Positions 18,134-20,899 of a stretch of 64,000 bases of DNA are shown piece after piece. Position 1 is the first letter of the stretch; every line of letters starts with the position of its first letter. A model generated the notes under the pieces. It was not told the DNA's origin, did not search any database, and worked only from the letters and a program-made list of their open reading frames with translations. Made by a program: the position numbers and the translations under genes. Source of the stretch: Cronobacter universalis NCTC 9529 (lineage in GTDB: Bacteria; Pseudomonadota; Gammaproteobacteria; Enterobacterales; Enterobacteriaceae); NCBI RefSeq assembly GCF_001277175.1, contig NZ_CP012257.1:1798001-1862000 (forward strand). Direction: 5' to 3'.

Positions 18134-18344
18134 TGAACTCGTCTCCTTTCCTTTTTCTTAAGCAGTCGGATGGCTGCATGAAATGTAAGGTAACTATAGA
18201 ACAGCACTGAAGTTCTTGCGGAAAAGGCGACGGCGTAAAAAACGGCAAATGCACCGCGCAGCGCACGCAGGATGCGACGCAGGGCCGTCCGATCCGCTAT
18301 CATAGTGGTTTATCTTTTGTTTGCAGCCAGTGAATCCGACGCTT

Positions 18345-18575
18345 ATGAAACCACTTCGTCATCAGAATCGTCCCGTTATCAGCTATGTCCCACGCGTGGA
18401 GCCAGCTCCGCCAGATCATGCGGATCGCATGGAGGGGTTTGACGATGTCTGGGTGCTGAAGGGCAAATATGTGGCGTTTGTGATGTCCGGGGATCGTTTT
18501 CGCCGCTCTCCCGTCTTCAGCAGCCCGGAAGCCGCCCAGCGCTGGGCCAATCAGCTCAAGCAGGATGAGGTATAG
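18345..18575 (+). CDS. cedA: Cell division activator CedA
   Basis: Small DNA- and RNA polymerase-binding protein that promotes division in over-initiating dnaAcos mutants of E. coli. 76 residues starting MKPLRHQNRPVISYVPR, closely matching CedA; eight further in-frame residues upstream are not conserved. Divergent from katE as in E. coli. Immediately after the stop begins a repeat of the end of the higA gene. Confidence 0.92.
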   Translation: MKPLRHQNRPVISYVPRVEPAPPDHADRMEGFDDVWVLKGKYVAFVMSGDRFRRSPVFSSPEAAQRWANQLKQDEV

Positions 18576-18587
18576 GGCGGAATTTTT

Positions 18588-18651
18588 GCCCGGCGCGACG
18601 CGCAGAAGAAAGAAGTCGCCTGAAACAACAAAGCCCGCCGGACAGCGGGTT
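18588..18651 (+). repeat. Direct repeat, copy 1 (copy of the higA 3' end)
   Basis: 60 of 64 bases match 19371-19434, which is the last 12 codons of higA plus the downstream hairpin. Read in the same frame, copy 1 encodes ARRDAQKKEVA and a stop, against ARRDTQKKEVA in higA. Weaker similarity, with one indel, runs upstream to 18577, two bases after the cedA stop. It lacks the rest of an antitoxin gene, so it looks like a remnant of a second copy or a duplicated target. Confidence 0.9.
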
Positions 18652-18656
18652 TTTAT
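18627..18656 (+). terminator. Terminator after cedA, inside direct repeat copy 1
   Basis: CCCGC / GCGGG stem with a CGGACA loop, followed by TTTTTATTT. It would end cedA transcription before higB. The hairpin is part of the duplicated 64 bases. Confidence 0.7.
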
Positions 18657-18668
18657 TTGCCTTTAAAA

Positions 18669-18687
18669 TGCACTTGCGCACTGTGCA
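18669..18687. promoter_or_regulatory. Candidate HigA operator
   Basis: TGCAC and GTGCA form an inverted repeat with a 9-base spacer, 49 bases before the higB start. HigA-type antitoxins autoregulate through short palindromes in this position. The site is inferred only from symmetry and location. Confidence 0.35.
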
Positions 18688-18735
18688 GGTGGGCGTTAAA
18701 GTGATCGGGAAAGGAAACAGGGAGGTATCAATGGA

Positions 18736-19032
18736 ATGCAGAAGCATATCGGCAGTTTTCGTGACGCCTGGCTGGCGGCTTTTTTCGTGTATTCGATGCC
18801 ACACCGCAACATTCCGGCAGAGATTCATAACACACTGGCGCGCAAACTCGACATCATCAACGCAGCAACCTCATACCTCGATCTCCGCTCGCCGCCTGGC
18901 AACCGGTTTGAGGCGCTGAGCGGTAAATTGCAGGGGTATTCATCGATTCGGGTCAACCATCACTACCGGCTGATTTTCAGATGGGTGGAAGGCAAAGCGG
19001 AAGAGCTCTATTTAGATCCGCATGATTACTGA
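18736..19032 (+). CDS. higB: Type II toxin, HigB/RelE family
   Basis: Probable ribosome-dependent mRNA interferase. 98 residues with the HigB pattern: SFRDAWLAAFF near the start, LARKLDIINAA, then GNRFEALSGKLQGYSSIRVNHHYRLIFRW and the LYLDPHDY end. Toxin precedes antitoxin, typical of HigBA. The ribosome site GGAGG at 18721-18725 is better spaced for an ATG at 18731, which is out of frame; the in-frame ATG at 18736 is 10 bases away. Confidence 0.88.
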   Translation: MQKHIGSFRDAWLAAFFVYSMPHRNIPAEIHNTLARKLDIINAATSYLDLRSPPGNRFEALSGKLQGYSSIRVNHHYRLIFRWVEGKAEELYLDPHDY

Positions 19033-19064
19033 TTGCGGCGTGCCGCAAAGTTAAGGAAATACAC

Positions 19065-19406
19065 ATGAAACAGGCAACCAGAAAGCCCACGACGCCCGGC
19101 GAGATCCTGGTGTACGAATACCTGGAGCCGCTCGGCCTTAAAATCAACGAGGTGGCGGAGATGCTTTGCGTCCATCGTAATAGCGTGAGCGCGCTGGTAA
19201 ACAATAACCGCAAGCTCACTACCGATATGGCGTTTCGCCTGGCGAAAGCGTTCGGCACCTCTGTCGACTTCTGGCTTAACCTGCAGGCGGCTGTCGACCT
19301 GTGGGAAGTGGAAAATGATATGCGCATTCAGGAAGCGTTCAGCCGCATCATACCCGCCGCGGAGTTTATCGCCCGGCGCGACACGCAGAAGAAAGAAGTC
19401 GCCTGA
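19065..19406 (+). CDS. higA: Type II antitoxin, HigA family (XRE)
   Basis: Antitoxin and autorepressor partner of HigB. 113 residues; the helix-turn-helix spans residues ~22-60 (GLKINEVAEMLCVHRNSVSALVN), preceded by the family motif KPTTPGEIL and followed by the FWLNLQ segment. It starts 32 bases after higB with TTAAGGAAA upstream. Its last codons and the following hairpin are duplicated after cedA. Confidence 0.92.
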   Translation: MKQATRKPTTPGEILVYEYLEPLGLKINEVAEMLCVHRNSVSALVNNNRKLTTDMAFRLAKAFGTSVDFWLNLQAAVDLWEVENDMRIQEAFSRIIPAAEFIARRDTQKKEVA

Positions 19407-19434
19407 AACAGCAAAGCCCGCCGGATGGCGGGTT
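19371..19434 (+). repeat. Direct repeat, copy 2 (end of higA)
   Basis: Partner of 18588-18651, 783 bases downstream. It contains the last 12 codons of higA and a CCCGC / GCGGG hairpin. The two copies bracket the complete higBA module. Confidence 0.9.
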
Positions 19435-19460
19435 ATCAGCGCTGAACGTCTATAAAATAA

Positions 19461-19484
19461 AACCCCGGCGCGCAGGCCGGGGTT
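19461..19484. terminator. Bidirectional terminator between higA and tcyP
   Basis: AACCCCGGC / GCCGGGGTT stem with a 6-base loop. The AT-rich flank on the higA side gives a U-rich tail for tcyP on the minus strand. Confidence 0.65.
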
Positions 19485-19507
19485 GATAACAACATCATCT
19501 TACGTGA

Positions 19508-20899
19508 TTAACGGTGCGCCAGTTCGGCCTCGTCATCGCTGTTCAGGATGGCTTTATCCGTCTGCTTCAGCCACTGGCTGGTCAGCGTGCCGGCGGTCAT
19601 GGAGCCGCTGACGTTGAGCGCGGTACGGCCCATGTCGATCAGCGGTTCGACGGAAATCAGCAGCGCCACCAGCGTAACCGGCAGGCCCATCGCCGGCAGT
19701 ACGATCAGCGCAGCGAAAGTCGCGCCGCCGCCGACGCCCGCCACACCGGCGGAGCTTAAGGTCACGATGCCGACGAGCGTTGCGATCCACACCGGGTCGA
19801 GCGGGTTAATGCCGACAGTCGGGGCGACCATCACCGCCAGCATGGTCGGGTAGAGACCCGCGCAGCCGTTCTGGCCGATCGTCGCGCCAAAGGAGGCTGC
19901 GAAAGAGGCGATGGATTCCGGCACGCCCAGACGACGCGTCTGCGCTTCCACATTCAGCGGAATGCTCGCCGCGCTGGAGCGGCTGGTAAAGGCAAACGTC
20001 AGCACCGGCCACACTTTGCGGAAGTAGCGCAGCGGGCTGACGCCGTTTACCGCCAGCAGGATACCGTGCACCACGAACATGATGCCGAGGCCCAGATAAG
20101 AGGCGACCACAAAGCTGCCGAGCTTGATGATGTCCTGCAGGTTGGAGCCTGCGACGACTTTGGTCATCAGCGCCAGTACGCCGTATGGAGTCAACTGCAT
20201 CACCAGACGCACCAGCTTCATCACCCAGCTCTGCAGGATGTCGATAGCCGCCAGCACGCGTTCGCCTTTCGGCGCGTCGTCTTTCAGCAGTTTCAGCGCC
20301 GCTACGCCCAGGAACGCCGCGAAAATCACCACGCTGATGATGGACGTCGGGCTCGCGCCGGTCAGATCGGCAAACGGGTTTTTCGGAATGAAGGAGAGAA
20401 TCAGCTGCGGTACGGTCAGATCGGCGACTTTACCGGCGTAGTTGGTCTGAATGGCGTTCAGACGCGCGGTTTCCGCGCTGCCCTGCACCAGACCTTCCGC
20501 CGTCAGGCCGAAGAGATTGGTCACCAGCACGCCGACCAGCGCCGCGATAAGCGTGGTGAACAGCAGGGTGCCGATGGTCAGCACGCTGATTTTACCCAGC
20601 GACGAGGCGTTATGCAGACGCGCCACGGCGCTCAGGATCATCGCGAACACCAGCGGCATCACAATCATCTGCAGCAGCTGCACATAGCCGTTACCGACAA
20701 TGTTGAACCACTGGATGGAGGTTTTCAGCGTCTCGCTGTCAGAACCATAAATGGTATGCAGCGCGAGACCGAAGACCACGCCCATGGCGAGACCGAGTAA
20801 TACTTTTTTTGCCAGGCTCCACTGCGTATGGCGCGTGCGCGCCAGCAACAGCAGCAGAACCACGAACGCGACAACGTTCGCTATCAGTGGAAGATTCAT
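19508..20899 (-). CDS. tcyP: L-cystine symporter TcyP
   Basis: Sodium- or proton-coupled L-cystine importer of the DAACS (dicarboxylate/amino acid:cation symporter) family. 463 residues, nearly colinear with E. coli TcyP (YdjN), with about eight membrane helices and the re-entrant loop motifs [13 protein letters not shown] and [16 protein letters not shown]. In E. coli this gene responds to CysB; no site was identified here. Confidence 0.96.

Follow-up and report, generated by a model that had tools for sequence, protein, structure and literature searches.

The higBA gene pair of Cronobacter universalis NCTC 9529 lies between two near-identical sequences, both of which correspond to the 3' end of the pair itself. 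This arrangement raises the question of whether the repeat records how the module arrived between cedA and tcyP, how it is lost, or a unit capable of both. We analyzed the 64,000-nucleotide stretch containing the locus (the window), the 4.44 Mb genome to which it belongs (G000), and one genome from each of six further species of the genus (G001–G006); the excerpted text of a strain survey counts seven Cronobacter species (PMC6920972). The comparison favors loss, and we put at roughly 0.8 the probability that higBA would have been inherited in the genus and lost by deletion between copies of the higA tail, with a scar left behind. The features of the locus, in window coordinates and with the supporting evidence, were as follows.

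18345–18575, + strand: cedA (cell division activator), left neighbour (PF10729, 1.4e-43; NF007510, 1.7e-46)
18583–18651, + strand: upstream repeat copy, a higA relic with the last 12 higA codons, stop and hairpin (91% match within the pair)
18630–18653, + strand: upstream-copy hairpin with a T tract after it (terminator scan)
18669–18687, + strand: TGCACTTGCGCACTGTGCA, probable HigA operator (motif shared upstream of higB)
18736–19032, + strand: higB, RelE-like toxin, 98 aa (PF05015, 2e-31, 108.7 bits against a cut-off of 27)
19065–19406, + strand: higA, HTH antitoxin, 113 aa (TIGR02607, 5.9e-31; PF01381, 7.7e-12)
19362–19375, + strand: GAGTTTATCGCCCG, native copy of the stretch that is repeated in G001 (alignments with G001 and the empty alleles)
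19366–19434, + strand: downstream (native) repeat copy, the higA 3' end and hairpin (repeat search, genome search)
19461–19484, − strand: terminator-like hairpin on the tcyP side (terminator scan, alignment)
19508–20899, − strand: SDF-family symporter (tcyP-like), right neighbour, convergent to cedA (PF00375, 5.7e-105)

The higBA pair and its flanking repeat

The cedA profile matches fall on a longer open reading frame, 18321–18575, for which the ATG at 18345 was chosen as the start. The NCBIfam search gave no family for higB, and every NCBIfam match of the tcyP-like gene was far under its cut-off; the name tcyP follows the initial annotation and the synteny that we assume for this region. HigA matched TIGR02607 with 106.1 bits against a cut-off of 47.7, and the genes are arranged toxin first, with 32 bases between higB and higA. 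By families and gene order, the intact pair between the repeats is a predicted HigBA type II toxin-antitoxin module. It resembles the YbaQ-type HigA/HigBA of E. coli in the toxin-first order, the families and a similar upstream motif. E. coli ybaQ lies at another chromosomal site, and in the 10 E. coli ybaQ records listed of 5467, 57% of the query was matched at about 70%. Upstream of higB, the motif GCAC-N4-6-CACNGTGC was present at 24 of the 28 loci having a HigB match and GCACTTG at 19 of the 28, both counts including G000 and G001. In the window, TGCACTTGCGCACTGTGCA is a probable HigA operator that would overlap the higB promoter; a sigma-70 consensus scan returned no promoter that reached threshold.

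A repeat search returned a single direct repeat, 18583–18651 and 19366–19434, of 69 bases with 91% identity and a start-to-start distance of 783 bases. The 64-base repeat described in the initial annotation (18588–18651 and 19371–19434) matched at 60 of 64 bases on recount, and this core occurs at two places only in the whole 4.44 Mb genome at E ≤ 0.001. When the higA 3' end was aligned locally with the 1200 bases preceding the gene, the score was 56, compared with a shuffle maximum of 11.5 (n = 100; row L033), and therefore the similarity is not attributable to chance. The makeup of the two copies was also as the annotation had it: the downstream copy, in its 69-base form, comprises the 12 final complete higA codons, the TGA stop and the hairpin, and the upstream copy directly follows cedA and contains no other part of higA. 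The latter begins 7 bases past the cedA stop at 18573–18575 when taken as 69 bases, or 12 bases past it when taken as 64, and 18583–18651 is a probable cedA 3' UTR or terminator.

Within 18300–19560, the upstream hairpin at 18630–18653 was the sole plus-strand terminator-like site. The downstream hairpin of G000 carries no plus-strand T tract, GCGGG being followed by TTATCAGC, whereas the upstream hairpin does. At the downstream higA hairpin, the T tract is present in G001 and G004 and absent in G000 (19410–19440), where a small deletion has probably removed it. A deletion between the repeat copies in G000 would therefore place a weaker hairpin after cedA, with that of the tcyP side next in line. 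Hence, the proposal that cedA would keep an intact terminator after recombination needs qualification: the remaining hairpin has no T tract, but the tcyP-side hairpin at 19461–19484 follows. A hairpin is present at the latter position in both full and empty alleles.

The cedA-tcyP interval within and outside the genus

Two of the seven species, G000 and G001, carry higBA between cedA and tcyP; it is absent in G002–G006, where the interval measures 157–179 bases. The initial annotation had predicted empty sites with one repeat copy, and these were found in four of the five species lacking the module. The coding stretch of the higA end scored 37, 37, 33 and 23 in G002, G004, G005 and G006, with shuffle maxima of 14, 13, 13 and 15, respectively (500 shuffles each), and a DNA search gave one match of 58–69 bases at the locus in each of them. 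G002, G004 and G005 each retain the higA 3' end and its hairpin in one almost intact copy, and the copy in G006 is shortened and altered. In the G003 interval no higA remnant passed the shuffles (score 9, reached by 73 of 500). Given the one-copy sites in sister species, the loss is best explained by deletion between the copies, and the single higA tail retained by most species without higBA is read as a scar of loss and no pre-insertion target.

The 64-base upstream copy is found in G000 alone. In the other carrier, G001, direct repeats likewise flank the module, with an upstream match of 15 bases after the cedA stop (CGAGTTTATCGCCCG) and its twin in higA, 785 bases away; none of 2000 shuffles reached 15, the longest being 14. 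Compared with GAGTTTATCGCCCG of the window, the G001 counterpart has an extra C in front and is repeated just 3' of the cedA stop, and in the interval alignments the left boundary of the scars lies at the GAGTTTATCGCCCG stretch. Fusing the G001 sequence at the two 15-mers yields a predicted interval of 161 bases; the G004 interval is also 161 bases long, and the two are identical at 155 of 161 positions without gaps. Against the other empty species, the predicted G001 product was identical at 128 of 164 columns (G002), 115 of 170 (G005), 118 of 173 (G006) and 103 of 192 (G003). For the predicted G000 product, the corresponding values were 136/162 for G004, 120/164 for G002, 108/167 for G005, 109/175 for G006 and 89/186 for G003, a poorer fit that is due in part to its altered downstream hairpin.

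For the comparison outside the genus, 80 of the 87 cedA loci in a CedA scan were kept, a selection that possibly left out near records, and five without a usable tcyP were dropped, giving 75 cedA-tcyP intervals. The repeat was found in none of these 75 intervals (best score 11); an upstream copy in genomes that never had higBA, the case named in the initial annotation as adverse to its reading, was thus absent throughout. The outgroup interval has a median length of 61 bases and measures at most 100 bases in 64 of the 75, a few lengths being perhaps off where the tcyP match stopped early (L129). Since the outgroup intervals are short and free of the repeat, the extra sequence in the empty Cronobacter species most likely arrived with higBA.

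The 11 nearest HigA proteins of other genera (L034–L044) all have a homologous C-terminal end. Six of them carry ARR like G000 (FIARRKAEQKNVA, FIARRKADAQKVA, LARREERAKKVA and similar), and five have SK, KR or QR in its place (FIASKAKKKVA, FIAQRDVGAKKVA); the C-termini of remoter HigAs diverge more from that of G000. On this homology, the repeated codons are read as the native C-terminus of G000 HigA. Together with the repeat-free outgroup intervals, the homologous ends indicate that the repeat is derived from higA and that the single copies are relics.

These observations can be joined into one sequence of events. Before the radiation of the genus, a complete higBA operon would have arrived in the short space between the convergent genes cedA and tcyP. 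With part of the higA 3' end also present after the cedA stop, the module is bracketed by direct repeats, of 64 bases in G000 and 15 bases in G001. Deletion between the copies, most simply by replication slippage, which at such short repeats would need no RecA, would remove higBA. Its product would be a cedA-tcyP interval holding a single higA tail and its hairpin, as in G002, G004 and G005 and, in decayed form, G006, and the remaining tail would then act as the end of the cedA transcript.

Age of the module and competing readings

Species trees were built from the left flank, the right flank, gyrB and a concatenation, all unrooted and without an outgroup. G001 and G004 grouped together with support values of 100, 100 and 97 for the left flank, right flank and gyrB, respectively, and 100 for the concatenation, and the placement of G000 and G002 conflicted among the trees (77 and 79 one way, 95 and 61 the other). 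Between G000 and G001, higBA differed at 16 of 96 four-fold sites and the three flanking genes at 156 of 801 (P = 0.29). As this divergence is like that of the flanks, the module behaves as if inherited from the common ancestor of G000 and G001. That ancestor is also ancestral to G004, and therefore G004 most likely lost higBA after its split from G001, a conclusion drawn between species, with no loss seen within one. Taken alone, higB is somewhat closer than the flanks (4 of 44 four-fold sites, P = 0.052), and horizontal exchange of the module is a possible alternative on this account.

The scars themselves are well conserved. Over 39 bases, those of G002, G004 and G005 show 1–2 differences compared with 9–12 expected at the four-fold rate (P = 1.8e-3, 2.9e-5 and 1.4e-5), a pattern compatible with recent loss or with a selected scar, not with old neutral scars. 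Retention for a function, with the higA tail and hairpin serving as a cedA 3' UTR or small-RNA element, would be compatible with repeat-mediated loss, and we give it a low probability. In its favor, besides the conservation, one-copy 3' regions fold better than shuffles, with z values of −3.44 (G002), −2.54 (G005) and −2.99 (G006). However, folding is not specific to scars, as the scar-less G003 reached −2.76 and the G000 upstream copy −1.67, and much of the energy is that of the terminator. Moreover, Rfam returned no family at the gathering score, the sole match being a CRISPR-repeat model at E 0.58, and sufficiently recent losses would give equal conservation.

In the long upstream copy of G000, the left arm of the hairpin, AAAGCCCGCC, is that of the higA hairpin, and the right arm with the next bases, GCGGGTTTTTATTTGCC, corresponds to the pre-higB region of G001 (GCGGGTTTTAATTTGCC). 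Hence, the 64-base copy looks chimeric at the hairpin, with a higA-type left arm and a pre-higB right arm. It could have arisen if a tandem duplication joined at both hairpins later lost its first copy, or if a full allele recombined into a scar allele. The first route recalls the initial annotation's tandem higBA copies, one of them lost, an idea that survives as a possible origin of the G000 upstream copy; tandem modules themselves were seen in none of the seven genomes.

The second route would suit an ancestral scar with later regain of higBA in the G000/G001 lineage by homologous recombination at the higA tail, which would create the two flanking copies, a history that the single-copy state in four of the six other species would also fit. 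We judge it unlikely, since a loss in G004 would still be needed, G001 and G004 being sisters and higBA diverging between G000 and G001 like its flanks, and since plasmid and phage records yielded no donor of the complete unit. In that search 175 plasmid and 2 phage records matched parts of the query, none of them as much as 80%. Coverage was at most 64%, at 67.7–78.3% identity, in both phage records and in the 12 of the 175 plasmid records that were listed. More doubtful still is a higA tail acting as a recurrent on/off site, with loss by slippage, homology for the re-uptake of full alleles of other strains and a solo tail selected as the cedA 3' end.

If higBA had inserted at the cedA terminator and duplicated a host target there, as the initial annotation had offered, repeats would also flank the module, but this reading was rejected as very improbable, since the repeated sequence is native higA, encoding a HigA C-terminus homologous in other HigAs, and is missing from 75 of 75 outgroup intervals.

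A higA search of 392 family genomes gave 44 places, the best 30 of which were taken as loci; one is G000, and 29 of the 43 others were examined, L038, L039 and L042 being kept in the repeat test with no HigB match in the fetched stretch. Upstream of higA at these 29 loci, the shuffle maximum (n = 100) was passed once and marginally, at L052 (13.0 versus 12.5, about 20 bases), and equalled at L038 (11.5); downstream, none of the other higA loci passed, L055 being too short on that side. A long 3'-end repeat comparable to that of G000 was thus absent at the 29 loci, and a family-wide cassette was rejected on this ground. Between the repeats, the open reading frame list and Pfam revealed no recombinase or transposase, the content being higB, higA and three open reading frames of 83–116 aa without a Pfam match that lie in or overlap the 783-base unit. 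The self-contained gain/loss cassette of the initial annotation, excising and reinserting as that unit, would account for the unit structure in G000 and the one-copy sites in relatives but is scarcely credible, given the lack of any sign of gain or reintegration, of a recombinase inside, of a second repeat pair in the genome, of a full unit on plasmids or phages and of a comparable long repeat at the other loci. The findings point instead to ordinary repeat-mediated loss of a toxin-antitoxin module, with loss as the only direction indicated.

Known repeat-flanked losses, strain surveys and other insertions

Loss of repeat-flanked segments is already a known kind of event, and here it concerns a toxin-antitoxin module, whose loss through direct repeats left a scar that can be read. 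In the excerpted text of one study, 10 to 18% of variable segments in bacterial genomes are flanked by direct repeats, and shorter alleles may stem from deletion between them (PMC2884548); compared with the segments described in that text, the repeat here comes from the lost gene, being its own tail, and the segment is a toxin-antitoxin pair. Another excerpt reports that 35- and 82-base repeats in E. coli recombined independently of RecA by a slippage-type route (PMC7063769), on plasmids there and at a chromosomal locus here. In the titles, abstract openings and matches listed, the literature gave no account of this locus or of toxin-antitoxin loss by such repeats, which is no proof of absence. 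The scar keeps the last codons of the antitoxin, so any genome of the genus can be typed for presence or loss and, to some extent, for direction; this offers a cheap natural system for asking at what rate chromosomal toxin-antitoxin modules get lost. We also suggest that higA similarity searches could match the scar in strains without the module and thereby mislead presence/absence surveys.

Four of the seven species also carry a second, divergent higBA pair (L171 in G000, at G000:C1:2129030; L172–L174 in G001, G002 and G004). It lies 292–312 kb from the cedA-tcyP locus in G001 and G000, and its HigA matches are 33–35% identical. C. sakazakii ESA_01887 primers published in the strain survey (PMC6920972) match this second locus with 0 mismatches in G001 and G002 and at most one per primer in G000 and G004, and they had no match with up to 3 mismatches in 20-kb stretches of the cedA-tcyP locus of the same four genomes. 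At E ≤ 1e-4, two higA-like loci only were found in G000 and two only in G001. As ESA_01887 corresponds to the second locus and just these two were found, ESA_02142/ESA_02143 is probably the cedA-tcyP higBA. Among 234 C. sakazakii genomes, according to the excerpted survey, HigA ESA_02142 was present in 75% and HigB ESA_02143 in 21% (PMC6920972). We suggest that this imbalance may partly reflect scars scored as higA, but other pairs in the same table, as excerpted, are unbalanced too.

The cedA-tcyP interval looks like an insertion hot spot. Outside the genus, 7 of the 75 intervals exceed 200 bases. The interval of Siccibacter colletis holds another addiction-module-like pair (L085:3350-4049) with an HI1420-type antidote (PF21716, 7.7e-13), preceded by two overlapping short open reading frames, the first of which, as typed, had no Pfam match; together they resemble a single RelE-like toxin divided between frames, a likeness that we assume. 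Two open reading frames in the Enterobacter wuhouensis interval (L103) are presumably transposase-like, and that of Kosakonia sacchari (L126) holds one presumably DJ-1/PfpI-like and one presumably LysR-like frame. The G008 interval of about 1.2 kb contains a 100-aa open reading frame (L015:698-1000) without a Pfam match; read from an inner ATG, it starts with MKQLTNKEMESVNGG, which presumably resembles the double-glycine leader of a bacteriocin or microcin.
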